Shown: positions 21 to 13,802 of the stretch, piece after piece
How positions within the stretch are numbered: position 1 is the stretch's first letter
Layout: every line of letters begins with the position of its first letter
DNA from: Candidatus Saccharimonadota bacterium
Lineage (GTDB): Bacteria; Patescibacteriota; Saccharimonadia; Saccharimonadales; UBA7683
DNA: 14,076 nucleotides
Assembly (NCBI GenBank): GCA_020427905.1
Contig: JAGQNU010000017.1
Coordinates: 1-14,076 of the forward strand
Reading direction: 5' to 3'
Translations under genes and position numbers: made by a program
The notes under the pieces: generated by a model
The model's database searches: none
What the model saw: the letters and a program-made list of their open reading frames with translations, nothing else
Told to the model about the DNA's origin: nothing

Positions 21-1229
21 CTAGCCGAGGCTCTCGCTTGCCAGGTTATATACAGGTACGAGAATCGCGAGTACGATACCACCAACAACGATTGCTAAAA
101 ACACCATCAAAACCGGTTCTATTGTAGTGCTAATCGTTTTTATCTTATTATCCAGCTCGTTCTCGTAATAACTGGCAGATTTACCCATCATCTTATCTAT
201 CGATCCAGACTGCTCACCCACCTTAATCATCTGGGGCACTAAAGAGAGAAACACATCCTCGGCCTTAAGTGACTCAGACAGCGCCTTACCGCCCTTTACC
301 TTCTCACTTGCGCGAGTAATCGCTTTTGCAACGTGCACATTGTCGACAGCTCGAGCAGTAATACGAAGCATCTCGAGCATCTGAACACCGCTGGCAATTA
401 ATGTCTGACCTGTACGGGAGAAGCGCGCCATATACAACTTCACATATAAATCGCCAAATAGTGGAATCTTCAATTTCAATCTATCAGCAAATATCGTACC
501 AGCACTCGTCTTGAGCCACTGCCGAAAAAAGAATCCACCAACTAAAAGAATTGCTATGATTAGCCACCAGAAGTTCGTAATAAACTTGGCAATGCCAATC
601 AATACTGATGTCAAAAATGGTAGCTCTTTGTTGAAGTCCTTATAGAGCAACTCGATTTGAGGTACAACTGTGGTTAGTAAGAACACGACCACGGCCACAA
701 TGACCGCTGTCACTATAATCGGGTATACGAGCGCCCCGCGAACCTTACTGATCATATCAGCGTCCTTCTCCTGTTGGTCGGCAATTCGCTCGAGTGCTTG
801 GTCAAGAGTACCCGAGGTCTCACCGGCTGCAACGAGGGCTACATACACATCATTGAAGATGTCGGGGTGCTTAGAGAGTGCCTCAGAGAATGATACGCCG
901 CCTTCTACGGAAGAGATCACCTGGCTAAGTACCAGTGCTAATTGCTTATTCTCTGTTTGCTCAGAGGCTGTGTAGAGGCTTTGTGTAAGCGGTAGCCCAG
1001 CATTAAGTAGTGTGGCGAGCTGACGCGTAAAAATAACCTTGTCCTTGGTCTTCACGTGTGTCGTTAACTTAGTTAACAACTTGCTCCCGCTTTGTTTTAG
1101 GGTTATATCAAGTGGTGTTAAGCCACGAGCAATCAGCAGTTTTGCAGCTGCACCTTCAGATTCAGCCTCAACAAGACCCTTTGTTGTGCCACCGTCCTTG
1201 TTTTTAGCCGTGTACTGAAACGTAATCAT
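21..1229 (-). CDS. pilC: PilC, type IV pilus inner-membrane platform protein
   Basis: This 402-residue protein is a full-length member of the GspF/PilC family, the membrane platform that couples the cytoplasmic PilB and PilT motors to the growing pilus. Two T2SSF repeats are visible, at about residues 68-190 and 270-392. Each carries the family's G-E-x-S-G signature (AGETSG at 135-140, VGEQSG at 337-342). Hydrophobic segments lie at about 168-189, 208-236 and 372-394, the expected three-helix topology. There are no cysteines. The ATG at 1229 follows the pilT stop after 6 bases with only a weak GGGG-type ribosome binding site inside pilT, so translation is probably coupled. It is co-transcribed with pilB and pilT. 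Identification rests on the repeat structure and context and is firm. Confidence 0.96.
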   Translation of the reverse strand: MITFQYTAKNKDGGTTKGLVEAESEGAAAKLLIARGLTPLDITLKQSGSKLLTKLTTHVKTKDKVIFTRQLATLLNAGLPLTQSLYTASEQTENKQLALVLSQVISSVEGGVSFSEALSKHPDIFNDVYVALVAAGETSGTLDQALERIADQQEKDADMISKVRGALVYPIIVTAVIVAVVVFLLTTVVPQIELLYKDFNKELPFLTSVLIGIAKFITNFWWLIIAILLVGGFFFRQWLKTSAGTIFADRLKLKIPLFGDLYVKLYMARFSRTGQTLIASGVQMLEMLRITARAVDNVHVAKAITRASEKVKGGKALSESLKAEDVFLSLVPQMIKVGEQSGSIDKMMGKSASYYENELDNKIKTISTTIEPVLMVFLAIVVGGIVLAILVPVYNLASESLG

Positions 1230-1235
1230 TAATTA

Positions 1236-2306
1236 TCAGCCCCGCATCAGCCTTTCAAACTCCTCGAGATCAACTGCAAACATTCGTGCGTCATCATAGG
1301 TCACCGTACCAGCTTTAATAAGTGAAATAAGAGTGCGGTCCATCGACTGCATACCTTGGTCGGCGCCAGTTTGAATCACAGCGTCTAACTGATGACTTTT
1401 ACCCTCGCGGATGATATTACGGACTGCTGAGTTTGCAACTAAAATCTCTGCCGCAGCTACACGCCCGCCGCCAATTGCTGGTACGAGGCGCTGTGAACAA
1501 ATTGCCATTAAGATATTTGAGAGCTGGGCGCGGATCTGTGGCTGCTGGTGTGGTGGGAACACGTCAATCATACGGTCAATCGACTGAGCAGCCGAGTTTG
1601 TGTGTAAAGTTGCAAACACGAGGTGACCAGTTTCAGCAATTGTTATAGCGGCGGAAATTGTCTCGAGATCACGCATCTCACCGATAAGCACCACGTCCGG
1701 ATCTTGGCGGAGACTCGAGCGCAATGCTGCGCTGAATGAGTACGTATCGTAGTGCACTTCTCGTTGCACCACTACTGATTTGTTTGATTTGTGCGTGTAT
1801 TCGATTGGATCCTCAATCGTTATAATGTGCTCAGCACGTTCGCTATTGATCTTATCAACAAGGGACGCGAGCGTAGTCGATTTACCGGAGCCAGTTGGGC
1901 CGGTCACGAGCACCAGGCCACGCGGAAAGTCGGCAAAACTTGTTACCACCTCTGGCATACCAAGTTGTTCAGGTGTCAAAATCTCATTAGGGATGAGGCG
2001 CAGTGCTGCCGCTAGGTTGCCGCGCTCATGATAGGCATTAACACGGAACCGCCCCATATCGCCAAATGCAAAGCTGAAGTCAAACTCTTTATCCTTCAGG
2101 AGCACCTCTTTCTGGTCATTATCCAAAATTGCAAAGACGAGGCTCTCAACTTGTGTCTCCGTAAGTTCAGGGGTGTTTGCAATTGCGCTCAATTTACCGT
2201 CAACTCTGATTTGGGGAGGAAGCCCAACTTGAATGTGCAAATCGGAGCCTTTGTTCTTTACAACGTGCTCCAGTAAGTTCTCTATTCGTAATGCTGCTGT
2301 TGCCAT
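1236..2306 (-). CDS. pilT: PilT, type IV pilus retraction ATPase
   Basis: This 356-residue protein is a hexameric secretion ATPase that powers pilus retraction and hence twitching, DNA uptake or tight surface contact. The Walker A motif GPTGSGKS is at 136-143, the Asp box (IEDPIEY) at 164-170, the Walker B region (DPDVVLIGE, catalytic Glu210) at 202-210, and the His box (GHLVFATLHT) at 227-236. The AVRNIIRE motif at 294-301 corresponds to the AIRNLIRE motif that distinguishes PilT from PilB and is needed for retraction. Length is typical. The ATG lies 9 bases after the pilB stop; the whole gap is a G8 tract plus one T, and this tract acts as the ribosome binding site. The only cysteine is C270. 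Identification is firm. Confidence 0.97.
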   Translation of the reverse strand: MATAALRIENLLEHVVKNKGSDLHIQVGLPPQIRVDGKLSAIANTPELTETQVESLVFAILDNDQKEVLLKDKEFDFSFAFGDMGRFRVNAYHERGNLAAALRLIPNEILTPEQLGMPEVVTSFADFPRGLVLVTGPTGSGKSTTLASLVDKINSERAEHIITIEDPIEYTHKSNKSVVVQREVHYDTYSFSAALRSSLRQDPDVVLIGEMRDLETISAAITIAETGHLVFATLHTNSAAQSIDRMIDVFPPHQQPQIRAQLSNILMAICSQRLVPAIGGGRVAAAEILVANSAVRNIIREGKSHQLDAVIQTGADQGMQSMDRTLISLIKAGTVTYDDARMFAVDLEEFERLMRG

Positions 2307-2318
2307 ACCCCCCCCTTA
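2307..2318 (-). promoter_or_regulatory. pilT ribosome binding site made of a G8 tract
   Basis: On the minus strand the pilB stop TAA runs directly into eight G residues, then T, then the pilT ATG. The string TAAGGGGGGGG can pair with the 16S tail (complement TAAGGAGGT) if one G-U wobble is allowed, so the stop codon of pilB is part of the pilT Shine-Dalgarno site. A homopolymer of this length in this position is unusual. Confidence 0.7.
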
Positions 2319-4130
2319 AGCGTTATCTGCTGCTGTTACACGGTTCACCTCTTCAAGCGTTGTCATACCCTGTAAGGCTTTGAGGTACCCGTCTTCGCGC
2401 ATAGATATCATTCCTTTTTCTACGGCTTTGTCGTGGATCTCTCCTGATGTAGAACGTGACAGGATCATGTTTTCAATCTCATCATCGACATCGATTACCT
2501 CATACAGTCCAAGTCTCCCCTTGTAGCCACCTGGAGTCTGCGAGGTGTCTTTACCTCTATATAAAGTATAAGCGTTTTCACCTATAAGTGGCAAGGTCTC
2601 GTAGCCAAGATCTTTTATGAACTCTGGTACAGCAGATTTATCACTCGGTAATAATGCTTGGAGTGTCTCCTTGATCGCAGCGGTTTCGACATCATCTGCC
2701 TGGTAGCTCACTTTATTATCAGCCAGGCGGCGCACAAGACGCTGGCCAATAATTGTGTTTACTGTTGAAGCAATCAGGAAGGGCTCTATGCCCATATCAA
2801 GCAGACGAGGCAATACGCCTGCCGCTGAGTTTGTGTGTAGTGTCGTGAAGACGAGGTGACCTGTGAGTGCTGCCTGGACTGCCAGATTGGCAGTCTCTGA
2901 GTCGCGAATCTCACCCACCAGCACGACATCTGGATCTTGGCGCAAGATTGAACGAAGACCTGTGGCAAACGTTAAGCCAACATCCGCATTCACCTGAATC
3001 TGATTGACACCCTCCATTTTGTACTCAACTGGATCTTCAAGCGTTACAATATTGATTGTGTCGTTTTTTATCTCTTGAATCAGTGCGTACAAACTCGTAG
3101 ATTTACCAGAACCAGTAGGTCCAGATGTAATAATCATGCCGTTAGGCTTTTTCATTCCCTTGCGCACAGTTCTCAAACTGCGTCCAGCATAGCCAAGATC
3201 CTCAAGTTTAAAGCTCGTATTGGTTTTATCAAGAATACGAATTATCACTTGCTCACCCCACACTACTGGGCTAATCGCTATACGAAGATCCGCATCACGC
3301 TGACCAATACGCACCGTGAATGTACCGTCTTGCGGAATACGGTGCTCATCGATTTTTAAATTGGATAGAATCTTCACGCGTGAAATTAGTGCCGGTTCGA
3401 TGCTCTTTGGTAAACTCATAATCTCACGTAAGACACCGTCGATGCGACAACGAATCCTCAAAGTCTCCTCAAGTGGCTCAATATGGATGTCCGATGAGCG
3501 CGAGCGCACTGCGTACTCTAAAATAGTACTCAACGCGCGACTAATCGGTGAGTCCTGGACAATTGTCTTTATTTCATCCTTCTCGCTCTGCTGCTTCTTG
3601 CCGCCACCAAGCAATTCTTGTATGTTGTCATCACTCGCCAACTCACTATCAACGCTTGTCATTGCCTCGCTCATGCCCTTCTGTAAGTCAGCATTATACT
3701 GATCAAGAATGTGTCTAATACCTTCCTCGGAGGCCATGTAAACCTTAAGGGGTCTCCCTATCTTGTTAGAGAGAAAGTCGACTGCCTGAACATTATTTGG
3801 ATCAAGCATAGCTACTGCCAAACGATTCTCCATCTCACCGAGCGGCACTGCCATAAACCGCTCAGCTACATCTTGCGGTAGTAAATTAAGCACGCTCGGG
3901 TTGACCTTTGAGGCTACGAGATTCACATAAGGCAAGCCCGTAACTTGAGCTGTCGCTTTAGTGAGTTGCTCGCTCGTTACGTGACCGTGCTGAACAAGAA
4001 AGCTTAGAAAGGGCACTTTTGCGCTCGAGGCCTCTTTTTTAAGCGCCTGAAGCTTGTTGCCATCGATTAATTTTGTGTCAACAAGTATTTGCTCGAGTTG
4101 TCGTTGATGTTCTTCAGAAAGTACGCTCAC
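2316..4130 (-). CDS. pilB: PilB, type IV pilus extension ATPase
   Basis: This 604-residue protein is a GspE/PilB-family motor that drives pilin polymerisation. An MshEN-type N-terminal domain spans about 1-150, followed by a charged linker and the ATPase core. Walker A (GPTGSGKST) is at 337-345, the Asp box (LEDPVEY) at 364-370, Walker B (DPDVVLVGE) at 399-407 and the His box (GHLVFTTLHT) at 424-433. The usual tetracysteine zinc motif of GspE/PilB proteins is absent: the matching segment (about 464-540, from RLVRR to GGYKGR) has no cysteine, and the only cysteine in the protein is C228. The start is GTG at 4130, 12 bases after the upstream stop, with GGGTGG as a plausible ribosome binding site. 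The N-terminal domain, length and pairing with pilT and pilC make this PilB rather than PilT. Confidence 0.96.
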   Translation of the reverse strand: MSVLSEEHQRQLEQILVDTKLIDGNKLQALKKEASSAKVPFLSFLVQHGHVTSEQLTKATAQVTGLPYVNLVASKVNPSVLNLLPQDVAERFMAVPLGEMENRLAVAMLDPNNVQAVDFLSNKIGRPLKVYMASEEGIRHILDQYNADLQKGMSEAMTSVDSELASDDNIQELLGGGKKQQSEKDEIKTIVQDSPISRALSTILEYAVRSRSSDIHIEPLEETLRIRCRIDGVLREIMSLPKSIEPALISRVKILSNLKIDEHRIPQDGTFTVRIGQRDADLRIAISPVVWGEQVIIRILDKTNTSFKLEDLGYAGRSLRTVRKGMKKPNGMIITSGPTGSGKSTSLYALIQEIKNDTINIVTLEDPVEYKMEGVNQIQVNADVGLTFATGLRSILRQDPDVVLVGEIRDSETANLAVQAALTGHLVFTTLHTNSAAGVLPRLLDMGIEPFLIASTVNTIIGQRLVRRLADNKVSYQADDVETAAIKETLQALLPSDKSAVPEFIKDLGYETLPLIGENAYTLYRGKDTSQTPGGYKGRLGLYEVIDVDDEIENMILSRSTSGEIHDKAVEKGMISMREDGYLKALQGMTTLEEVNRVTAADNA

Positions 4131-4142
4131 CTAGGCCACCCA

Positions 4143-4385
4143 TCAGTTGGCGAAGACGTTATCAGTACTTTCACCACTCCCCTGAATCTCTACTGTTGCA
4201 TCAATTGACTGCTCGTTAAAAATACGGTCATCTGGCTCAGAGAAGTTACTGCTGATTGGTGTTACCTTCTCGACTTGTACTGGATTATTTTTAGGACTCC
4301 CAATCACTGCACCTGCGACAAAATAGGTTATGATACCAGCAATCGCTACAATCAGCACAAGAGCAGCAATATCATTTTGTTTCAT
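4143..4385 (-). CDS. Small single-pass membrane protein at the PilP position
   Basis: This 80-residue protein has a short charged N-terminus, one hydrophobic helix at about 8-28 and an extracytoplasmic tail of about 50 residues rich in Ser, Asn, Asp and Glu. Its ATG shares one base with the pilO stop (TAATG), so it is translated with PilO and sits between pilO and pilB, where diderm bacteria encode PilP. It has no lipobox cysteine, in fact no cysteine at all, and is too short to hold the PilP beta-domain. It is therefore not PilP by sequence. A role as a small subunit of the PilM/N/O inner-membrane complex is inferred from position only. I do not recognise a named family. Confidence 0.85.
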   Translation of the reverse strand: MKQNDIAALVLIVAIAGIITYFVAGAVIGSPKNNPVQVEKVTPISSNFSEPDDRIFNEQSIDATVEIQGSGESTDNVFAN

Positions 4386-5014
4386 TATTGCACCTCCATC
4401 TTGCCAACACCAAGATCTCGGGTTGGTTGATAATATGTTGTTGCGGTGATCAACGCTTTGAGTTTATCGCTTGTGCCAGAGTACTCTACACTAGTAATGT
4501 GTATCGGGCGAATACTCAGCTCAGTGTTCTTAATAAACTGCACGATCGAGTCGTATGTACCGTTCACTTCAATGCTCAGCGGAATCTCTTGTGGTTCGGA
4601 CACAACCGAAGTACGAATAGCACTCTCTGATATATCTTGACCAACAGAACCAGGAAACGTGACGCCCGATGTTTGAGCAAGCGACTCTATGTAGGTGGCA
4701 AGTCCTGGGTAATCGTAACTTGGTGGCAAGGCATGGAGAATTACTTTTGAGTTTGTTGAGGCTGATGCCTCGAGATCAACGAATTCCTTAGAGAGCGAAT
4801 CAACACTGCTGTTGTTCTTCTTTATTTGATTGCGAGCCTCAACTTTAGCGCTAATTACCCGTGAATTGTAGCTGAGTTGAGCCCATAAAAATTTTGCAGC
4901 AATAAGACTAGCCATGACTACTACAGCAGCAACCGCCACGGCAATAAATACCGTCGAGTTTGCACGGCTTATCTTCTCGCGTTTTGTCTCTTTTTTGTCC
5001 AACTGCTGGTTCAT
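4385..5014 (-). CDS. pilO: PilO-like type IV pilus alignment protein
   Basis: This 209-residue protein has a charged cytoplasmic N-terminus (1-19), a membrane helix at about 20-42, a polar helical stretch likely to form a coiled coil (about 48-90) and a C-terminal alpha/beta domain of the PilO/GspM ferredoxin-like type. The region from about 93 to 120, with its L-P-P-S-Y-D followed by an amphipathic helix and S-G-V, matches the usual PilO pattern. PilO pairs with PilN in the membrane and helps align the pilus machine. The start overlaps the pilN stop as ATGA. Its order after pilM and pilN supports the call; sequence conservation of this family is low, so context matters. Confidence 0.88.
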   Translation of the reverse strand: MNQQLDKKETKREKISRANSTVFIAVAVAAVVVMASLIAAKFLWAQLSYNSRVISAKVEARNQIKKNNSSVDSLSKEFVDLEASASTNSKVILHALPPSYDYPGLATYIESLAQTSGVTFPGSVGQDISESAIRTSVVSEPQEIPLSIEVNGTYDSIVQFIKNTELSIRPIHITSVEYSGTSDKLKALITATTYYQPTRDLGVGKMEVQ

Positions 5015-5700
5015 TGCCCACCCCCATCAATAAATGGCTTCTCGTCTTGTAGTAGTAGATCTTCGGAGGAGGCATTAACTTGCAGCTTGCCTGCCTCAAC
5101 CGACTGATTAAAAATTATCGGGTCAAAGGTGAGGGTGATCTGGAAACTCACATTTTTAGTATCCTCTGCCTGTTCGCTACGACTCAAGCCGTCAAATACA
5201 ACATTTGAGAACGGCTGCACAGACTCCTCTGACTCATTCTGCACATAGGTAAACTTTGCACCCTTTAGATTATTAGCAAGTACATTTGCCTGCTCAAAGG
5301 TAGCGGCGGTGCCTTGCAGTGTCAATGTTGACTCAGTAACATCCAGCTTGATGTTACTGAATAAGACTGAGCGAGGAGTAAAACCCGCTACATACACAAA
5401 CAAACGCGATGTTGCTAATTGTTTGTCCTCAAGCCCGGGCAACGTCTCGAGTGCCCCTTGGACCGTTACAATTTTGACTGCATTATCCTTACCCTTCAAA
5501 TCTGATAAACCACTGTCTATGTCGCCCTGAACATTCTTTTGATGCTGTGGCTGCACTACGCTCACATATGCGAATAGTAAACCAACGATAACGAGCGCTA
5601 CCACTGATAACAGCACCGAAGCTACAATGACTGTATGTTTCATCTGCTCCGCCTTAAGATAGTCTTTTTTGACCTGTGGGAGTAAATTAATTTCTATCAT
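5011..5700 (-). CDS. pilN: PilN-like type IV pilus assembly protein
   Basis: This 229-residue bitopic membrane protein begins with the hallmark I-N-L-L-P motif (residues 4-8), the short cytoplasmic tail that docks into a groove of PilM. A membrane helix follows at about 23-49, then a helical stretch and a C-terminal alpha/beta domain to about 200, ending in a polar extension. The ATG overlaps the pilM stop as ATGA, so PilM and PilN are translationally coupled. The INLLP motif and the neighbours make the call secure even though the periplasmic-type domain is poorly conserved across phyla. Confidence 0.93.
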   Translation of the reverse strand: MIEINLLPQVKKDYLKAEQMKHTVIVASVLLSVVALVIVGLLFAYVSVVQPQHQKNVQGDIDSGLSDLKGKDNAVKIVTVQGALETLPGLEDKQLATSRLFVYVAGFTPRSVLFSNIKLDVTESTLTLQGTAATFEQANVLANNLKGAKFTYVQNESEESVQPFSNVVFDGLSRSEQAEDTKNVSFQITLTFDPIIFNQSVEAGKLQVNASSEDLLLQDEKPFIDGGGQ

Positions 5701-6752
5701 ATCGTTGTCCTCAACGCCAAGCCAACAGCCACTGCAAATTGATGATTAAGACTCATCAACTTCTCGTGTTCTGCGTTACTGTAATTGACATTCTGCCATG
5801 AGTTACCCGCCTGCACTGGTACCCCACCGGCAGCCTGTGAGAGATACTGGTGGAACCCTGGAAGCAGCGCAGCAGCACCTGAGGTCACAATACCCCCAAC
5901 TTGCGTATCCTGATAGCGCGTTGAGAAGAACTTGATCGATTTCTGCACCTCGGTTGTTATTACCTGCGCAGTTGGCTCAATTGCCTTGTATACTTGCCCC
6001 TCGAGCTTACTCTGATCAAAGCCGAACTTGTAGACAAACTGTTGTGCCTGATTATCATCAACGTTGAGATTCTGCTTAGCTGATTTCATTAATGCTTGGC
6101 CACCTGTTGGTATCGAGCGAACAAGACGCGGTGCACCACCAAGCGTAATAACGATATCTGTGGCATACTCGCCCATGTCAACTATCATCTGAGCCCCAGA
6201 TGAAGTACCAGATGAGGCTAGTGCGCGAGCCAATGCTAACGCCTCGGGCTCCAAACCAACAACGTTAAGTCCAATAGCCTCGAGTGTCTCGAGACGACTC
6301 TCGCTAAACGAGTTTGAGACACTGGCGAGCAACACCTCCTGCTTACTATCATCAGATGGAGAATCACCGATCACCGCCCAGTCAATGCGTGAGTCCTCGA
6401 TCGACATCGGAATATATTGATCGGCTTGATACTTTAGTGTGCTTGCCAGCTCTTGGGGACTTATTTTTGGTAAGTCAACTACTGTCACAAAAGTTTTGTT
6501 AGCCGGCAAACCCACCACTACATTCTTTGCAGAAATGTCTGCCTCTTGCAAAAGTTGTTTAATGATTGTACCAATTTGTGCCCTATCAGCTGGTGCGTCA
6601 GATAACGATAGTTTTACATCAATCGGTGCAACGGCATATTTGAGCAGAGTATGATTTGAGCCAGAACCACGCAGCTGCACTACCCTGAGTGCGGAACTGC
6701 CAATATCTAGTGCGAAGAAATCGCCCACCGCGTTGAATATTGAATTCTTCAT
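5697..6752 (-). CDS. pilM: PilM, actin-like ATPase of the type IV pilus
   Basis: This 351-residue protein belongs to the FtsA/PilM actin-like family and recruits PilN on the cytoplasmic face of the pilus machine. Phosphate-1 motif ALDIGSS is at 14-20, phosphate-2 motif VDMGEYATD at 191-199 and the adenosine motif GGIVTSGAAALLPGF at 286-300. The frame stays open upstream to a TTG at 6791, but I place the start at the ATG at 6752. The 13 extra residues (MALHNAYATLVVS) do not match the family, and the stretch between 6763 and 6791 forms a good promoter whose -35 covers that TTG. With the ATG start the leader would be only about 4 bases. The gene begins the tightly linked pilM-N-O block. Confidence 0.95.
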   Translation of the reverse strand: MKNSIFNAVGDFFALDIGSSALRVVQLRGSGSNHTLLKYAVAPIDVKLSLSDAPADRAQIGTIIKQLLQEADISAKNVVVGLPANKTFVTVVDLPKISPQELASTLKYQADQYIPMSIEDSRIDWAVIGDSPSDDSKQEVLLASVSNSFSESRLETLEAIGLNVVGLEPEALALARALASSGTSSGAQMIVDMGEYATDIVITLGGAPRLVRSIPTGGQALMKSAKQNLNVDDNQAQQFVYKFGFDQSKLEGQVYKAIEPTAQVITTEVQKSIKFFSTRYQDTQVGGIVTSGAAALLPGFHQYLSQAAGGVPVQAGNSWQNVNYSNAEHEKLMSLNHQFAVAVGLALRTTI

Positions 6753-6762
6753 GCTTACGACT

Positions 6763-6791
6763 AGTGTAGCATAAGCGTTATGGAGTGCCAA
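6763..6791 (-). promoter_or_regulatory. Promoter of pilM
   Basis: On the minus strand there is TTGGCA (6791-6786), a 17-base spacer, and TACACT (6768-6763) preceded by TGC, which makes an extended -10. The -35 matches the sigma-70 consensus at 5 of 6 positions and the -10 at 4 of 6. It lies in the 51-base gap between the 860-residue gene and pilM. It would give a start site about 4 bases before the ATG at 6752, so the pilM mRNA would be nearly leaderless. Confidence 0.6.
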
Positions 6792-6803: not shown

Positions 6804-9386
6804 CTAATATATAGGGGGTAGTTCCTGGGTTGTGATAGGGGCTGAATTTGGCTGGTTACCAAGTTCTTCAAGGTATGCTTCTGGGCTAAAGTTAACAACC
6901 TCCGCAGCGCATCGTATACTACGCGCTACAGCACGATCAACAACATCTGATGCACCAGGGTCTATAAAGGGGGTATCAGCTGAATCAGAGTAGTTACCAA
7001 AATAACAAGCGGGATCTAGTGCATCGCTCTTGAATCCAAGCGTGCCGATGGTTCGCTTCCACACTATCCGTCGAGCTGCAACTGAGCCGTTTATTGTCAG
7101 TTTACTCGAATTACAGGATCCAACACTAAGTGTAGTTGGCCAGACCCCAGGCCCCGCAACGTCTGCGCAGGTATCAATAAGCCCCTTCGTATTAACGCCC
7201 GTATTTGTAATATCCGGAAATGCAATGAGCGAGGCATCAATTTGCTGCACCGGACGAGAAACATAGATGTTACCCTTATGCGCAATAAGCGTCAGTGACG
7301 GTATGGTTTGTAGTGTGTAATCTTGATATGAGATATCACCGGTTATAGCAATGTCTGCGTTTTGAACAATCAGCACCTTGCGCTGCCCAGATGCTACAGA
7401 CAAGCTTCCGAGGGTAATGTCTGTACCGTTTATCACACCAACTGCGTATCCAGGCAAAGCTAGGAATGCGTTTACGTCACTCTGCGACGTTAAAACAGTA
7501 TACCCACCCCCTTCGTCTGCATTAAAATATCTTGATATATCTACACACGGTAACGGAAGTGGATCGAGCAAATCAAGATAAAACCGACCGTATTCAGCTA
7601 CGCTATAATTTGCAAATAACGCATCTTGTATGTCGTCCTGTCCAGTTTGTACGCCACGAGCGTAACCGAAGTTTCCTCTAAACGTATTAGTTCCACCTTC
7701 AGTTGAGCCAATATCACCACTCGCAAACACGCCGTACTGTCCTGTCGAGCTACCATTGAGGGCGTTCAGGTTTGTGCTGCCATGATACCCATTAGTGATA
7801 ATGGCGGCATCCTTAGCATCTGCGCTAACCGTACAGCTCCCCATATCCGCAAATGCTGCACCACTATAAACGTCTCCACCAGACACGCTTACATACGGAC
7901 GATTAACATTAGTCTTAAAAACTGCCTCGCACGATGCATACGGAGTGCGAGCCACACCGTCACCCTCAAGCAACAGTCTGTATGTAAGCGTTTCTGTCTC
8001 AGACATCGTAGCTGGTGCAGTAAATGTTACGGGTGTGTTCGTTGTTTTACCAGATTCAAGGATTGGCCCAAATGCACCGGTAACACTTGGCTGAATCGCC
8101 AAACGTTTAGTGCCTGGCCCCCAGCGGTCATTGTCACCTACCACACCCAGCCTAAAACTTGCTGTACCGGATGCACTTGGATACAGAACACTCCAGGGGT
8201 TAGCACCAGTGTTGTTTACTGTAATTGTACCTGTAATCGTTTGGCCAGGAGCAACAACCTTGCTACTTGGATTGGTGATATTAATTTCACACGATCCCCT
8301 GAGCGGATGAGATGCATCACAATCAAAGTAGCTCTCTGATGTATTGAATGGAAGCCATGCTCGCACGCCATTTTTGTTCGTCACATCCTTCCATTTCCAG
8401 ATGTACTTATAACCTTTTCTAACCTTTATCTTTACTCGCCCAAAGCCAGCCTCACCACCAAAACGCAAGCCGTCAGCCGCGCCAAGTTGGCGTTCAGTCC
8501 GTGTGCCATCGGGTTTAATCGTGGTGAGAAACATTGTAATATCAGGATTTTGGTAACTTGTACCCTGGTCATCATCGTACCAGTGCAGCCACACATCGTG
8601 TTCGTTATTATCTCCAAATAGCGTGCAGGGTGGCGTAAGTGGAATTGTATAGTCTTGTGTGTTCATATTACTCGGCCGACCGAGCCAGACGGTCTGACCG
8701 CTAGTACCACCTGTAAATGATTCGCTTCTCCACTTGTCTGGATCAAGCGTCCATGCACCGGTATAGCCCCCGGGAGCGTTGACCTTAAACGTATTGAGTG
8801 GGCCTGCTCCAGTAGTCACGGGGTCACTTTTGTTGCCGTCATAGGCAATGCGAACACGGACAATCATTGGATAAAGCGGTGTGCCGAACTGGCTCACATG
8901 ATTCGGTACGTTCGACTGCGCAAGCCAATCACTCGGTACAGTAAAGCTATAGGTAGAGTTGCATGATTCAGCAGTTATTTCACCGAGGGTTTTTCGTGTT
9001 CCGCTTCGAATACGCTCGTAATTATAAAACTGTGAACCATTCTTCTTCTCACTAACAGTGGAGTAGCCGTACACAATCAACTTGGCGTTACGTGCACGTG
9101 AGTCCTGTGAGCTGCAAAAACCGCCATGCGGCAGCTCAATGGTGTTGCCGTCCTGCCCACCATAATACGCAATTAAATATGTGTCTGGTGCATAGAGTAG
9201 ATTTGTAGCACCGCTGCCCGAGCCCGAATTTGAACCCGCCGAAACTGTATAGAATATCGTATTGCTACCGATATAGTCACTCGGAGACACAGCATGAACG
9301 TGTTGCGAGAACCCAAGTCCGACCAATAACACGACGAATCCGGCTAGTAACTTCTTCTGAAATAGTACCCGCGGTAAACGCCTCAT
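6804..9386 (-). CDS. Large secreted cysteine-rich protein with an Ig-like domain, putative pilus-associated adhesin
   Basis: This 860-residue protein has a Sec signal peptide: basic residues at 2-12, a hydrophobic core at about 13-27 and a V-H-A cleavage site at 30-32. Residues 33-365 are beta-rich with no family I recognise. Residues 366-492 look like an Ig-like domain of the NBR1-central type: N-x-T-G-x-N-P-W near 392-398, W-G-P-G-T-K-R-L near 422-429 and T-A-P near 456-458. Residues 497-860 are glycine-rich and beta-strand-rich, with repeated short strands (for example 670-720) that suggest a beta-solenoid. Twelve cysteines contrast with nearly cysteine-free neighbours; C366 and C486 bracket the Ig-like domain. 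There is no sortase signal and no C-terminal membrane helix. The ATG overlaps the upstream stop as ATGA. A pilus-tip or surface adhesin is inferred from secretion and location; no adhesion activity can be read from the sequence. Confidence 0.9.
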   Translation of the reverse strand: MRRLPRVLFQKKLLAGFVVLLVGLGFSQHVHAVSPSDYIGSNTIFYTVSAGSNSGSGSGATNLLYAPDTYLIAYYGGQDGNTIELPHGGFCSSQDSRARNAKLIVYGYSTVSEKKNGSQFYNYERIRSGTRKTLGEITAESCNSTYSFTVPSDWLAQSNVPNHVSQFGTPLYPMIVRVRIAYDGNKSDPVTTGAGPLNTFKVNAPGGYTGAWTLDPDKWRSESFTGGTSGQTVWLGRPSNMNTQDYTIPLTPPCTLFGDNNEHDVWLHWYDDDQGTSYQNPDITMFLTTIKPDGTRTERQLGAADGLRFGGEAGFGRVKIKVRKGYKYIWKWKDVTNKNGVRAWLPFNTSESYFDCDASHPLRGSCEINITNPSSKVVAPGQTITGTITVNNTGANPWSVLYPSASGTASFRLGVVGDNDRWGPGTKRLAIQPSVTGAFGPILESGKTTNTPVTFTAPATMSETETLTYRLLLEGDGVARTPYASCEAVFKTNVNRPYVSVSGGDVYSGAAFADMGSCTVSADAKDAAIITNGYHGSTNLNALNGSSTGQYGVFASGDIGSTEGGTNTFRGNFGYARGVQTGQDDIQDALFANYSVAEYGRFYLDLLDPLPLPCVDISRYFNADEGGGYTVLTSQSDVNAFLALPGYAVGVINGTDITLGSLSVASGQRKVLIVQNADIAITGDISYQDYTLQTIPSLTLIAHKGNIYVSRPVQQIDASLIAFPDITNTGVNTKGLIDTCADVAGPGVWPTTLSVGSCNSSKLTINGSVAARRIVWKRTIGTLGFKSDALDPACYFGNYSDSADTPFIDPGASDVVDRAVARSIRCAAEVVNFSPEAYLEELGNQPNSAPITTQELPPIY

Positions 9387-9820
9387 CCTGCGATCAGCCC
9401 ATCTACATCGTCTTTCTCGACAGGTTGCTGCTTAGAAGTGTCGAGCTGTACCGGTAACGATTCGTCGAGAATATTCTCTATCGTAAGGTTGACCTCCCCC
9501 AGTGATGCACGATCAGGGTCGAGTGTGTCAATCTTCTGTGCTTTTTGTGCCATAGATTTAGCCAAATCTATATCACCTGCGTAGTAAGCAGTTTTTGCAT
9601 AATCTGCATAGAAGTTCTTCGTCTCTTCTTTTTGCTGTGAGGCTGCTGTCTCGAAGAGGTCTATGGCGGTTTTGTAGTTACCCTTGCTTGATGCATCCAA
9701 GGCGGCTGTGTAGGTAGTTGCGTAGTTACCCCGGCCAGAGAGCGCAATGAAAACAACTACCACAGCCCCTAAAAAAAGAACTATCAGTACTGGAACTCCG
9801 ACTCTCACATACTTCTTCAT
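9383..9820 (-). CDS. Membrane-anchored TPR-like protein
   Basis: This 145-residue protein has a short basic N-terminus, a strong membrane helix at about 7-28 and a soluble helical part. Residues 33-100 form paired helices with the alanine/tyrosine spacing of tetratricopeptide repeats (G-N-Y-K-T-A-I-D-L-F near 47-56, then a Y-Y-A-G-D-I-D-L-A-K-S unit). The last 45 residues are acidic and probably flexible. The ATG follows an upstream -10 by 12 bases. The stop overlaps the start of the 860-residue gene, so the two are translated together, and a role in exporting, folding or anchoring that protein is plausible. It is not the outer-membrane pilotin PilF: it has no lipobox. I do not recognise a named family. 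Confidence 0.88.
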   Translation of the reverse strand: MKKYVRVGVPVLIVLFLGAVVVVFIALSGRGNYATTYTAALDASSKGNYKTAIDLFETAASQQKEETKNFYADYAKTAYYAGDIDLAKSMAQKAQKIDTLDPDRASLGEVNLTIENILDESLPVQLDTSKQQPVEKDDVDGLIAG

Positions 9821-9925: not shown

Positions 9926-9947
9926 AACTCGGAGTTAACTCCGAGTT
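9926..9947 (-). terminator. Perfect 22-bp palindrome, hairpin at the end of the 448-residue gene
   Basis: Arms AACTCGGAG and CTCCGAGTT are exact reverse complements around TTAA, and the symmetry holds through the centre. Transcribed from the minus strand it would fold to a 9-bp stem with a 4-base loop and would contain part of the TAA stop (9948-9946). No T-run follows on either strand, so it lacks the tail of a standard intrinsic terminator. It may still protect or end the transcript, or it may be a protein-binding site some 70 bases upstream of the pilus-locus promoter. Confidence 0.5.
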
Positions 9948-11292
9948 AAATCTGAGGCATATCAATTGGGTGTGCGAGCCTACCTAGGTCGTCCTGTGTG
10001 TTTATGCCGATACCCTTTGGGTTGCCTTTGGTGGCTAACGTAATATGCGGTGGCTGCACCTCAAGCTGGAGTCCAGTTAAATCATTGAGTGCTGTAATGA
10101 AACCAACCGCACTCGAGCACTCTACAATCTCAATGATTGCCTCTCGTGGTACATCCTCACCCTCTGACTGTCGCTCAACGCGATAAAACTCACCCGTCTT
10201 GTTAAATGACCAGTCGGTACGCTCAGTCAGTTCCAAGACCTGCCGCTCAAGTTCAGGGTGCTGTTTCAGCATCTTCCTTAATGCTCCGCCTTGCTTGAAG
10301 CCAATGACGGTCAAATGGACCTCTGGCTTTAGCGTATAGCCATGTGACTCAGCAAATGCACGTGTCGATTCACTGACTACGCTAGATACGTCCTCAACAT
10401 CTATAAGCAGCGTACCGTGCCCGGGCTCAAACCGTGGGGATACGCCTTCGACATAGCGGGATTCTTCAGACTGAAGATTTGATATCGTTTCTTGATCCAC
10501 GGTAGCAGCAAGTTGTTTTGCTAACCCCAGGTCACCGGTAAGCACTATTCCGAAACCTGGGTAGAGCTGTTTAATTACATCTGCACCGTCTCCACTAACA
10601 TAAAAGGTCACGTCACGACCCCTATCTTCTTTTACAATTTTTGTAAGACCGTTTTTTTCAGCAACCGAGTCAAAATCTAGCTCAGCTGCGCCAACATATT
10701 TCAATCCATCACCCGCAGCAACAACACCACTTCTGTGACCGGATACTGCCATCGCTAAAAACCCCTCAGGTTTGTCAGAGACAGCAACACCGTCATCAAC
10801 CACAAATTGCTCACGAGCACGAGTAATCAAGTGCTCATGAGCCACCGCCGCAAATCCGCCAGGATCGCTGAGTGCATCATCAAGCTGCCTGATAACGCGC
10901 TTATAATCAGCAGCGAATTCAGTTTCACTGAGATCACCTGTAGTTTCTTTGCCCGACACTGTAGCTTCACCCATAACCGTCCATACTGTGGCTTCGGGTG
11001 AACCGTGTGAAAGCTGTTCTGCATACTGCCATATACCCCCTACGTGCAAAGTGTTTGTGAGTTGCTCGACCAATTCCATATCAGCACCATACTGACCCAC
11101 AAGCTGCTCTATACGTCTTCGTGTCTCAGTAACCGCAAGCATTCCTGATGGATCAAGACCCTGGATTGTTCTACCTTCCAAGCCCTGTAAGCCATTGGTT
11201 TCTGCATACACGCGCAGTTCTTCTCTAATCGCACCCACATCAACTGCATTGCTTGATTCGGCCCTTAGTGCTGTGTCTTTATCATTCGACAT
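9946..11292 (-). CDS. Unknown protein with a C-terminal 2H-phosphoesterase-like domain
   Basis: This 448-residue soluble protein has no signal peptide or membrane helix. Residues 1-285 match no family I recognise and are acidic and alpha/beta in character. The C-terminal part (about 285-448) carries two H-x-T-x motifs, HLTV at 326-329 and HITL at 416-419, 90 residues apart. This is the signature of the 2H phosphoesterase (LigT/CPDase) fold, in which the two histidines act on 2'-5' linkages or cyclic phosphates. Hydrophobic residues precede each motif as expected for the paired strands, and the segment D-W-S-F to F-Y-R-V near 360-371 lies between them. The substrate cannot be told. The gene has its own strong promoter, divergent from ychF. 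Codon use is like that of its neighbours. The ATG at 11292 has no clear Shine-Dalgarno site. Confidence 0.85.
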   Translation of the reverse strand: MSNDKDTALRAESSNAVDVGAIREELRVYAETNGLQGLEGRTIQGLDPSGMLAVTETRRRIEQLVGQYGADMELVEQLTNTLHVGGIWQYAEQLSHGSPEATVWTVMGEATVSGKETTGDLSETEFAADYKRVIRQLDDALSDPGGFAAVAHEHLITRAREQFVVDDGVAVSDKPEGFLAMAVSGHRSGVVAAGDGLKYVGAAELDFDSVAEKNGLTKIVKEDRGRDVTFYVSGDGADVIKQLYPGFGIVLTGDLGLAKQLAATVDQETISNLQSEESRYVEGVSPRFEPGHGTLLIDVEDVSSVVSESTRAFAESHGYTLKPEVHLTVIGFKQGGALRKMLKQHPELERQVLELTERTDWSFNKTGEFYRVERQSEGEDVPREAIIEIVECSSAVGFITALNDLTGLQLEVQPPHITLATKGNPKGIGINTQDDLGRLAHPIDMPQI

Positions 11293-11373: not shown

Positions 11374-12474
11374 ATGAGTTTGTCTATTGGCATTGTTGGA
11401 TTGCCGAACGTCGGGAAGTCGACGTTATTTAATGCACTCACAAAAAACGATATCTTGGCGGCCAATTACCCCTTTGCCACCATTGAACCAAACACGGGCA
11501 TCGTGCCTGTTCCTGATCAGCGATTACAAAAACTTTCTGAGATCTATAACAACGCCCCGATTGTGCCGGCTGCTATCACTTTTGTAGATATTGCTGGGCT
11601 TGTAAAGGGTGCCAGCCAAGGTGAAGGTCTGGGCAACCAGTTCTTGGCCAACATACGTGAGTGTGCCGCGATTGTGCATATCGTCCGCGCCTTTGAGAAC
11701 AACGATATTGTTCATGTCCATGAACGTGTCCATCCTGAAGAAGATATTTCTATCATCAACACTGAGTTGATGTTAGCCGATTTGCAAACAGTTGAAAAAA
11801 GCCTCCCTCGTTTTGAGAAGGAGTCAAAAGCAAATCCTAAAGCTAAGCCTATCGTTGCCCTACTCCAGAAACTCCAGGAGCTCCTCGAGGCGGGAGATGC
11901 TGCCGGCATTCAAGCTATCGCCGAGAAGTTTGATAGCGACTCTGAAGAGGCAAAAACGCTGAGAAGCTTACAGCTCATCAGCACTAAACCAGCAATCTAT
12001 GTATTCAACGTTGATGAGGCAGACCTTGCCAACAATGAGAAGCAACAGCAGCTGAGTTCACTCGTCTCCCCTGCAAAAAGTCTATTTGTAAATGCACAAC
12101 TTGAAGCTGAGCTCAAAGACATGAGTGAAGATGAGCAAAAAGAGATGCTCGAGAGCTACGGGCAAAGCGAGCCTGGGCTTACCCAAGTCATTCACGCCGC
12201 CTATCAGACACTTGGCCTTCAGAGTTACCTAACCGCTGGCGATAAGGAGGTTCGTGCCTGGACAGTTAAGCAGGGCTCCACTGCTCCGCAGGCAGCAGGT
12301 GTTATTCATGGTGATTTTGAGCGTGGCTTTATAGCTGCTGATGTCGTGAACTACAACGACCTCATCGGTGCTGGATCGCTAGCCGCGGCTAAAACTAGCG
12401 GCAAAGTCCGTACTGAAGGTAAAACCTACATCATGCGTGAAGGCGATGTAGTCGAATTTAAGTTTAACGTCTAG
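11374..12474 (+). CDS. ychF: YchF, ribosome-associated P-loop NTPase
   Basis: This 366-residue protein is the nearly universal Obg-family ATPase YchF (OLA1), which binds ribosomes and modulates translation and stress responses. G1 motif GLPNVGKST is at 9-17 and G3 region [11 protein letters not shown] at 71-81. The G4 position reads NVDE (212-215) in place of NKxD, the change associated with ATP over GTP preference. A helical insert spans about 130-200, and the TGS domain ends in the typical [12 protein letters not shown]. The frame opens at a GTG at 11335, but the ATG at 11374 gives the family's normal length, begins [12 protein letters not shown] as expected, and avoids starting inside the promoter. 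The last 11 bases overlap the 3' end of the convergent PH-domain gene. Confidence 0.97.
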
Positions 12475-13012
12475 CCTGAGCGCGCTGAACGAGCGCCAAC
12501 GATTCTATAAATTCCGTGGCACGTTTCCAACGTTCAGCGCGACTTCTGACATAGTCGTGATGCAGCTCACCTGCCACCACACCAGAAGCCATCTTGTTAT
12601 TTTTTAGCACCGACCCAAGCACATCCTTTCGTGAACCGTCAGCAAACATCTGACCCTGTATATACTGCGAGAGACTCCTAAGCTCTGAACGATACCAAGA
12701 TCTGAAGTGTAAATCGCGGCCCGTATAGTAAAAATGAACACTGGCCAAAAAACCTTGTTGAGAGAACTCAACCTCGTTAATCGACTTATACCGGATATCC
12801 TCGTAGCTCATTCTGAGCCACTTTTTATCGACAAGTAATAGCCTTTTTGAGGTTGCACAAATAGTAGCCATGCCGGCGTTATAATAGCCGCCGACCATAC
12901 CAATCACCGTCTCGTCCGGCAGCAATAGCCGTTGTATCTCAGCAGCCTCCCCTCGAGAGAACGGGTTCATTTTATTCAACCGAACCATCTTCTGTCGTAA
13001 CTTCCCAGACAT
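12464..13012 (-). CDS. YokE-like bacterial PH-domain protein
   Basis: This 182-residue cytoplasmic protein has a bacterial pleckstrin-homology domain of the YokE-like (bPH) type at about 28-120. The pattern is L-P-D-E-T-V-I-G-M-V-G-G-Y-Y (31-44), then A-T-S-K-R-L-L-L-V-D (53-62), Y-E-D-I (70-73) and alternating beta strands through F-Y-Y-T-G-R-D-L-H-F. The tail (about 125-182) is basic and helical. The molecular role of these domains is poorly known and a partner cannot be named. The ATG at 13012 is preceded by AAGGAG with 5-base spacing, the clearest Shine-Dalgarno site in the window. The gene is divergent from the CRP/FNR-type regulator and may be its target. Its 3' end overlaps the convergent ychF by 11 bases. 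Confidence 0.9.
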   Translation of the reverse strand: MSGKLRQKMVRLNKMNPFSRGEAAEIQRLLLPDETVIGMVGGYYNAGMATICATSKRLLLVDKKWLRMSYEDIRYKSINEVEFSQQGFLASVHFYYTGRDLHFRSWYRSELRSLSQYIQGQMFADGSRKDVLGSVLKNNKMASGVVAGELHHDYVRSRAERWKRATEFIESLALVQRAQARR

Positions 13013-13154: not shown

Positions 13155-13802
13155 ATGCTAGCCGACAAAGCAGCACGAGACCAGTTGATTGCCTTCTTCC
13201 ATAGTGGAACAAAAGTAGAGTATAAAAAGGGTGAATCAATTGTGCGATCTGGTGATGAACCGCTCGGCATCCACTATATAGATGAGGGATTTGTGAAGGC
13301 CTACGCTATCACAAAATACGGCGAGGAGAATAACCTGATTGTGCGCCAACACGACGACATATTCCCGCTCATCTGGGCCTTTACTGGTCTCCACCGAGAT
13401 ATTACCTACCAAGCACTGAGTGATACGACATTATGGCGCGTCTCCAGGAGTGCCTTTTTGGAATTTCTGAAGACGAATGAGCACGCTATGACGGTGATAC
13501 TGGATATGTCCATAGAGGCCTATCGATTACACTCCGAGCGCGTCATGACGCTTGAGTACCGCACCGTGAAGGAGCGGCTCGCTAGCTTTCTACTTACCCA
13601 CGCGGAGCGTTTTAACGACGGTTCATCTAAAAACTTGGCTCTAAGCGCCCCAATACGTCGACATGATATTGCTAGTTCCATTAACGCCTCTCGCGAGAGC
13701 ACTAGTCGCGCCCTCTCAGCTCTAGCTAAAGCGGGGTACGTTAACCTAAAAAGCCGCTATATCGAGATCCCCAATCCAGACAAACTCAAAGAGCTGCTCT
13801 AA
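13155..13802 (+). CDS. CRP/FNR-family transcription regulator
   Basis: This 215-residue protein has a cNMP-binding-like beta-roll at about 20-105, a long dimer helix at about 108-138 and a winged helix-turn-helix at about 165-205. The recognition helix reads SRESTSRALSAL, with R180, E181 and R185 in the positions CRP uses to read TGTGA, plus the S-R pair seen in FNR (E-x-x-S-R). The phosphate-binding cassette of CRP (G-E near 71 and R-S near 82) is missing (residues 68-82 are DIF to HRD), so cAMP binding is unlikely. There are no cysteines, so an FNR-type iron-sulfur cluster is excluded. The ligand is unknown. It is divergent from the PH-domain gene, and its last 17 bases overlap the convergent small gene. 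Calling it Crp or Fnr would overstate the evidence. Confidence 0.94.
   Translation: MLADKAARDQLIAFFHSGTKVEYKKGESIVRSGDEPLGIHYIDEGFVKAYAITKYGEENNLIVRQHDDIFPLIWAFTGLHRDITYQALSDTTLWRVSRSAFLEFLKTNEHAMTVILDMSIEAYRLHSERVMTLEYRTVKERLASFLLTHAERFNDGSSKNLALSAPIRRHDIASSINASRESTSRALSALAKAGYVNLKSRYIEIPNPDKLKELL

Follow-up and report, generated by a model that had tools for sequence, protein, structure and literature searches.

What does a large secreted protein do in the operon of a type IV pilus (T4P)? The question is raised by the contig JAGQNU010000017.1 of Candidatus Saccharimonadota bacterium (order Saccharimonadales; assembly GCA_020427905.1), in which a gene encoding a cysteine-rich protein of 860 amino acids (aa) (6804..9386, minus strand) lies directly upstream of pilM. 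The window analyzed here is this entire contig of 14,076 bases, which ends beyond pilC, so that the minor pilins lie outside its view. A preliminary description, made from the sequence of this DNA, had regarded the protein as exported, disulfide-stabilized, and active at the pilus tip or cell surface, possibly in recognizing the host cell; its observations were right on every countable point, and its interpretation was supported in part. We propose, with a probability of slightly less than 0.6, that the protein is secreted and, without being a pilin, belongs to the retractile T4P's tip (priming) complex, with a PilY1-like layout built on a ComZ-type beta-solenoid. Its reading as an adhesin is plausible but unproven. 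The newer and stronger point is that this candidate tip protein belongs to a T4P-linked family that occurs across most of the order's genomes, and partly outside it, and combines a core like that of a tip pilin with a conserved terminal tail and outer domains that are often exchanged.

A family encoded beside pilM

The chain begins with a Sec-type signal peptide (residues ~1-32; 9291..9386, minus strand, like all parts of the protein), recognized by hydropathy, with the cleavage site VHA/VS placed by eye. It is followed by an N-terminal domain (type 1, residues 64-360; 8307..9197), an FW (NBR1/ILRUN)-type immunoglobulin (Ig) domain (residues 360-493; 7908..8309), a conserved C-terminal domain (CTD) with the predicted beta-solenoid fold of ComZ and ice-binding proteins (residues 489-851; 6834..7922), and a conserved tail, TTQELPPIY (residues 852-860; 6807..6833). 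The Ig fold, on which the preliminary description had centered, was recovered by structure comparison and had no Pfam family match, but the parts that define the family are the solenoid and the terminal tail, both of which had gone unmentioned. Secretion was supported: by hydropathy, an N-terminal hydrophobic segment of the signal-peptide kind was also observed in 107 of the 113 pilM-adjacent relatives longer than 330 aa.

A contig scan with the single 860-aa protein as a query yielded no relative, and among 7,990 scored candidates, the close homologues came to four proteins, the window protein included. Its C-terminal part is common to proteins otherwise unlike one another. A profile of this part (A2, a 13-row alignment) matched 173 of the 197 genomes of the order, and 147 of the 162 with at least 90% completeness and at most 5% contamination. 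In a draw from the phylum, 82 of 286 genomes matched A2, namely 20 from the same order, three others from the same class, and 59 from beyond, and the matches outside the order span chiefly the solenoid core (model positions ~145-285).

Gene context was analyzed in 74 regions around CTD matches, taken from 71 other genomes among the 173 and hand-picked across genera (a non-random sample), and in 80 named loci, the best 80 of 94 retrieved with two peptide patterns. Together with the window, these gave 167 CTD ORFs (open reading frames), 155 of them non-redundant. pilM was the next gene (<700 bp) for 117 of the 155, including those of oral taxon 352 (L198) and Microsaccharimonas (L163), and lay further downstream for 13, most of which are the leading copy of a tandem. 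The association with T4P is thus much stronger than the single locus had shown, and the CTD fold is moreover shared with a proposed pilus-tip pilin.

Outside the order, 20 regions from 19 genomes, mostly the strongest among the 62 matching, were inspected. A related protein was found directly upstream of pilM in six of them (L226-L229 and L234 by profile, and L240 by match coordinates, its own profile match being absent from the automated list) and within the pilN/pilO/pilB cluster in three more (L230, L238, and L239). Three of these nine (L234, L239, and L240) belong to the same class. In the other 11, some of which are cut by contig ends, no core T4P gene was detected with profiles built from Saccharibacteria. 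The match in L239 (genome G285) lies in an open frame of 25,343 aa that contains a run of N, and this length may be an artefact. Genome G404 carries two related proteins of 991 and 1,070 aa (L223 and L224) with 54 and 60 cysteines, which agree in all of their last 25 residues; no pil genes were detected nearby.

A solenoid followed by a free tail

Structure comparison of the predicted CTD model showed a resemblance to the beta-solenoids of ComZ and of DUF3494 ice-binding proteins. ComZ of Thermus thermophilus is a proposed tip-located minor pilin that binds DNA (PMC6561018). Its solenoid is inserted in a pilin domain, ahead of the last strand, whereas the 860-aa protein has a signal peptide, no pilin domain that could be found, and a free conserved tail that ends the chain. 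In L079 and L096, both of them short, the signal peptide runs directly into the CTD sequence, and no pilin domain was seen either. Since the ComZ solenoid precedes the last pilin strand and a conserved free tail follows the solenoid here, we infer that a minor pilin may receive such a strand in trans from this tail.

The likeness to ComZ may also be read differently: the protein could be a DNA receptor serving the competence function of the pilus, and not a host adhesin, with a tip solenoid that binds DNA for ComEC-dependent uptake. Consistent with this, com genes are conserved in Saccharibacteria, on which natural transformation has been used (PMC10633639). We nevertheless find such a receptor unlikely. 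DNA is a single ligand, yet the part that precedes the CTD is often exchanged; in S. epibionticum, cells without comEC are viable, whereas most T4P genes rank as class I essential (PMC10633639); and the DNA-binding lysines of ComZ sit between its two domains (PMC6561018), one of which was not found here.

It is highly improbable that the protein is instead an ice-binding protein or a beta-helix enzyme acting on carbohydrates. The solenoid resembles that of DUF3494 proteins, but no Pfam match to the DUF3494 family was found in the window protein or in 43 scanned members, and the gene setting is that of a T4P. Homology to a known enzyme had been named beforehand as evidence that would speak against a tip protein, and neither Pfam nor NCBIfam gave an enzyme family for the window protein, nor did Pfam for the 43 members. 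Its one Pfam match at E ≤ 1 was DUF7927 (E 0.28, below the cut-off), NCBIfam gave none, and the 43 members yielded three families with one weak match each (DUF7305, Big_3_5, and DUF7460). No viral protein of BFVD matched at E ≤ 0.001, a DUF3494 protein appearing there at E 2.6. Ice binding would also be ill-suited to a protein present beside pilM across most of the order, with record titles that mention oral, groundwater, and reactor sources. Among PDB chains, phmmer found no match to the 860-aa protein at E ≤ 10, nor did a larger profile, A7 (a chosen set of 21 loci and 68 proteins, the latter from the 77 in P0002-P0078). With the A2 profile, the sole match was thermostable direct hemolysin 2, at E 0.089 across 71 columns, and was judged due to chance.

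The chain of the window protein ends in ELPPIY. An ending of the form [LMIV]PPx[FYLWIV], a pattern drawn up after the family had been seen, was present in 138 of the 167 CTD ORFs and in none of the 3,569 remaining mechanically called ORFs (≥100 aa) from the same loci; the search profiles for the order and the homologues contain the tail, which could push this count upward. Most of the remaining CTD ORFs retain one proline (LSPVL or VAPRY). Likewise, 76 of 78 proteins from protein searches end in PPx[FYLWVI], and the second tail proline is one of seven invariant columns in a 90-row alignment. The strict tail was commoner beside pilM (105/117) than in ORFs without pilM (11/25; Fisher p 2e-6). 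In several relatives from beyond the order, the motif PPG[FL] does not close the chain but lies some residues ahead of its end.

Cysteine pairs and exchangeable outer domains

The disulfide-type pattern proposed for the cysteines was supported by covariation. C740 and C758 are kept in 199 of 200 cases; C518 and C614 are both present in 104, both absent in 78, and discordant in 18; and C254-C356 is conserved in all 29 ungapped cases. It had also been suggested that DsbA or VKOR genes should be sought in the genome. A DsbA-like Thioredoxin_4 gene was indeed found in 37 of 40 relatives, the source genome included, whereas VKOR, found in 25 of the 40, including both members of the genome's family, was not found in the window's own genome, which is 77% complete.

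Across 223 non-identical CTD proteins, similarity ahead of the CTD drops faster than similarity of the CTD itself. Among 94 pairs at 50-60% CTD identity, some similarity in this part was detected in 70%, and over most of its length in 37%; for the 20 pairs at 60-70% identity, these values were 90% and 55%. At E 1e-3, no such similarity was detected between the tandem copies of L072 (71% CTD identity) or L094 (64%), between L019 and P0003 (70%), or between the window protein and P0002 (59%), whose joint alignment covers 57% of the query and hence extends into the Ig domain. The type 1 domain of the window protein was matched in 36 ORFs, 34 of them with a CTD, and a second type in 75 ORFs, 73 of them with a CTD (duplicates counted); the two never occur in one protein. 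In family f36, four short fetched members of 364-418 aa (L077, L079, L085, and L096) are still beside pilM, and L093 reaches 1,163 aa.

Tandem CTD genes before pilM were observed in L070, L072, L073, L078, L094, L097, L111, L142, L147, and L187 (L111 and L187 being from one genome), and in L070, L072, and L094, the parts preceding the CTD show no detectable similarity between the copies.

The short members, L079 and L096 being little more than a signal peptide and a CTD, would also suit an envelope assembly factor or a pilotin-like chaperone that stays at the cell surface with a tetratricopeptide repeat (TPR) partner. In the window, the gene overlaps by ATGA with that of a 145-aa membrane-anchored TPR-like protein (9383..9820, minus strand), whose Pfam TPR matches fall below the cut-off, and a TPR-profile match lies just upstream in 43 of the 117 pilM-adjacent members. 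The other 74 had none with the profile used, and exchangeable outer domains would be of little use to a chaperone; we therefore regard this explanation as very unlikely.

The proposed tip complex and its counterparts

In the tip-complex reading that we favor, Sec would export the protein, as its sequence indicates, and the cysteine pairs would form outside the cytoplasm, as their covariation suggests. The solenoid, with its free ELPPIY end, would then dock on one of the minor pilins (PilX is the likeliest), probably through the tail lent as a beta-strand. In this way the protein would come first in the growing filament and ride outward on its tip, where the N-terminal and Ig domains would face outward and bind a lineage-specific ligand, most plausibly on the surface of the host bacterium. 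The layout, gene context, conservation, and predicted fold rest on sequence or computation, and it is from these that we infer docking, tip location, and ligand. A bolder version remains tentative and somewhat doubtful: the family may be a class of non-pilin T4P tip proteins proper to Patescibacteria, a functional counterpart of PilY1 in a lineage thought to be without one, in which the LPPx(F/Y/L) tail, acting as the last pilin strand, completes the minor-pilin sheet and holds the ComZ-type solenoid in trans, and the exchangeable N-terminal domains set which host is caught. Whichever version is taken, the protein may be the piece with which epibiotic Saccharibacteria start or aim their pili, and a tip role for it would mean that a PilY1-like tip arose on another fold. 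Its wide occurrence in the operon, its pilus-type core and conserved tail, and outer domains that can be exchanged make it a concrete candidate for the pilus tip and for the host specificity of epibiotic Patescibacteria.

Several observations weigh against a tip-complex role. The simple prepilin pattern matched 0 of the 155 non-redundant CTD ORFs, but this is weak evidence for a non-pilin because ComZ itself lacks key pilin motifs and was overlooked by a pilin finder (PMC6561018). Foldseek found nothing below E 0.15 with the CTD, the tail is modelled at pLDDT (predicted local distance difference test) <50, that is, with no confident structure, and the solenoid is common to ice-binding proteins; a fold alone shows no function. 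No CTD match was found in 15 of the 162 good-quality genomes, most pilM-adjacent members had no upstream TPR match, as given above, and the exchange of the part before the CTD is frequent but not the rule, since 70% of the pairs at 50-60% identity keep some similarity. Homologues away from T4P loci, which had been named as possible evidence against the association, do exist but are a minority: for 25 of the 155 ORFs, some of them giants, no pilM lies downstream within the fetched stretch, and four of these have less than 1.5 kb of contig left. Giant CTD proteins of 1,893-2,087 aa in genomes G020, G045, and G182 are true exceptions to the T4P setting.

Giant CTD proteins whose fetched stretch holds no pil genes (L026, L030, and L118), together with the Ig domain, the beta-rich N-terminus, and the lack of a pilin pattern, could point to an adhesin or scaffold, free or on the cell surface, that shares the operon without riding on the pilus. 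The frequent adjacency to pilM, with which the terminal tail goes, and the ComZ-like fold argue against this, as does the window protein itself, in which no second hydrophobic segment was found, and we consider it improbable.

Some loci depart from the usual setting. L026, L030, L031, and L118 encode CTD proteins of 973-2,087 aa with no pil genes in the fetched stretch, and three of them have altered tails (VTPVNY, IKALNW), so that recruitment to another role is possible. In genus g53 (G055 and G119; L241 and L242), the CTD gene stands amid other genes with the tail LAPRY, and pilM is not adjacent. Several CTD ORFs of up to 1,682 aa occur in L196, L208-L211, and L219 (two Nomurabacteria-titled genomes, Hs463_bin113 and Iy174_bin30); all of these ORFs end in VAPR[YF], and pilM is missing from the stretch that was fetched, which possibly reflects a family expansion.

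Saccharibacteria are monoderm. PilY1/PilC (PF05567), the tip adhesin and priming protein of diderm T4P, is likewise a large cysteine-rich non-pilin with a signal peptide, a variable N-terminus on a conserved C-terminus, and a T4P-gene setting, and it may occur in multiple copies per genome, like the tandem copies here. Its C-terminus, however, is a beta-propeller, whereas a beta-solenoid is predicted for the 860-aa protein, and it is encoded with the minor pilins and not before pilM. PF05567 had no match at E ≤ 1 in the window protein; separate genome searches for it were negative (0/60 and 0/143), but control genomes likewise gave no match. PilY1 has been stated to be absent from monoderms (PMC9934059). 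The pilY1 transcripts that one study reports in ultra-small groundwater genomes (PMC9938205) tell against simply declaring it absent from the genomes analyzed here.

In Nanosynbacter lyticus TM7x, PilX1 and PilX2 also bring extended outer domains to a Saccharibacterial T4P, and PilX2 has been proposed as the PilY1-like adhesin of T4P-2; the targeted T4P-1 pilins could not be deleted (PMC12206443). Both are described as pilins. Identity with TM7x PilX1 was rejected, as L243 and L244 carry a PilX-like pilin with an extended C-terminus at the far operon end, whereas the 860-aa protein precedes pilM. L244 has 12 listed genes from pilM to pilX, or 13 if the small pilO-pilB gene is added, which is present in the window, L198, and L200 and not in the L244 listing; the 13 tags TM7x_00415-00475 match the latter count. 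Judging from gene counts, the TM7x counterpart would fall just outside these tags. PilX-like pilins, identified by eye, were observed in L243 (12031-13086, 351 aa), L244 (12229-13488, 419 aa), and L245 (3313-5535, 740 aa); they have a long C-terminal extension, are placed after other pilin genes, and are possible partners of the CTD proteins.

In the monoderm Streptococcus sanguinis, the modular minor pilins PilB and PilC similarly show adhesive modules at the tip, but there the module is fused to a pilin (PMC9934059), whereas a separate secreted protein is found here. The parts of the main texts of PMC12206443 and PMC10633639 covered here do not mention a gene of the 860-aa type, and no published description was found in a search of mostly open-access main texts. 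Gene order in the T4P operon is reported to be conserved among oral TM7 genomes, and the grey genes in Fig. 6a of that article (PMC7739484) may include the gene unnamed. Minor pilins located at the tip have been named in a review as an object for work of this kind (PMC11665869).

In the window, the genes run on the minus strand from the TPR-like gene and the 860-aa gene to pilM (5697..6752; PF11104, 1.8e-38; start taken at ATG, the ORF list giving TTG at 6791), pilN (5011..5700; PF05137, 1.6e-4, 22.1 bits against a cut-off of 22.8, and operon position), pilO (4385..5014; PF04350, 1.4e-7), a gene for an 80-aa membrane protein (4143..4385) with 76-aa counterparts in L198 and L200, pilB (2316..4130), pilT (1236..2306), and pilC (21..1229), the last three being named from sequence and position. 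Upstream of the TPR-like gene lies ychF, in the opposite orientation. A 448-aa protein (9946-11292, minus strand) with no Pfam match above the cut-off has two HxT-type motifs (HLTV and HITL) reminiscent of 2H phosphoesterases. Pfam also identified a bacterial PH-domain protein (12464-13012, minus strand) and a Crp/Fnr-type regulator (13155-13802, plus strand), and look-alikes of both were recognized by eye near the corresponding locus in L019 and L021.
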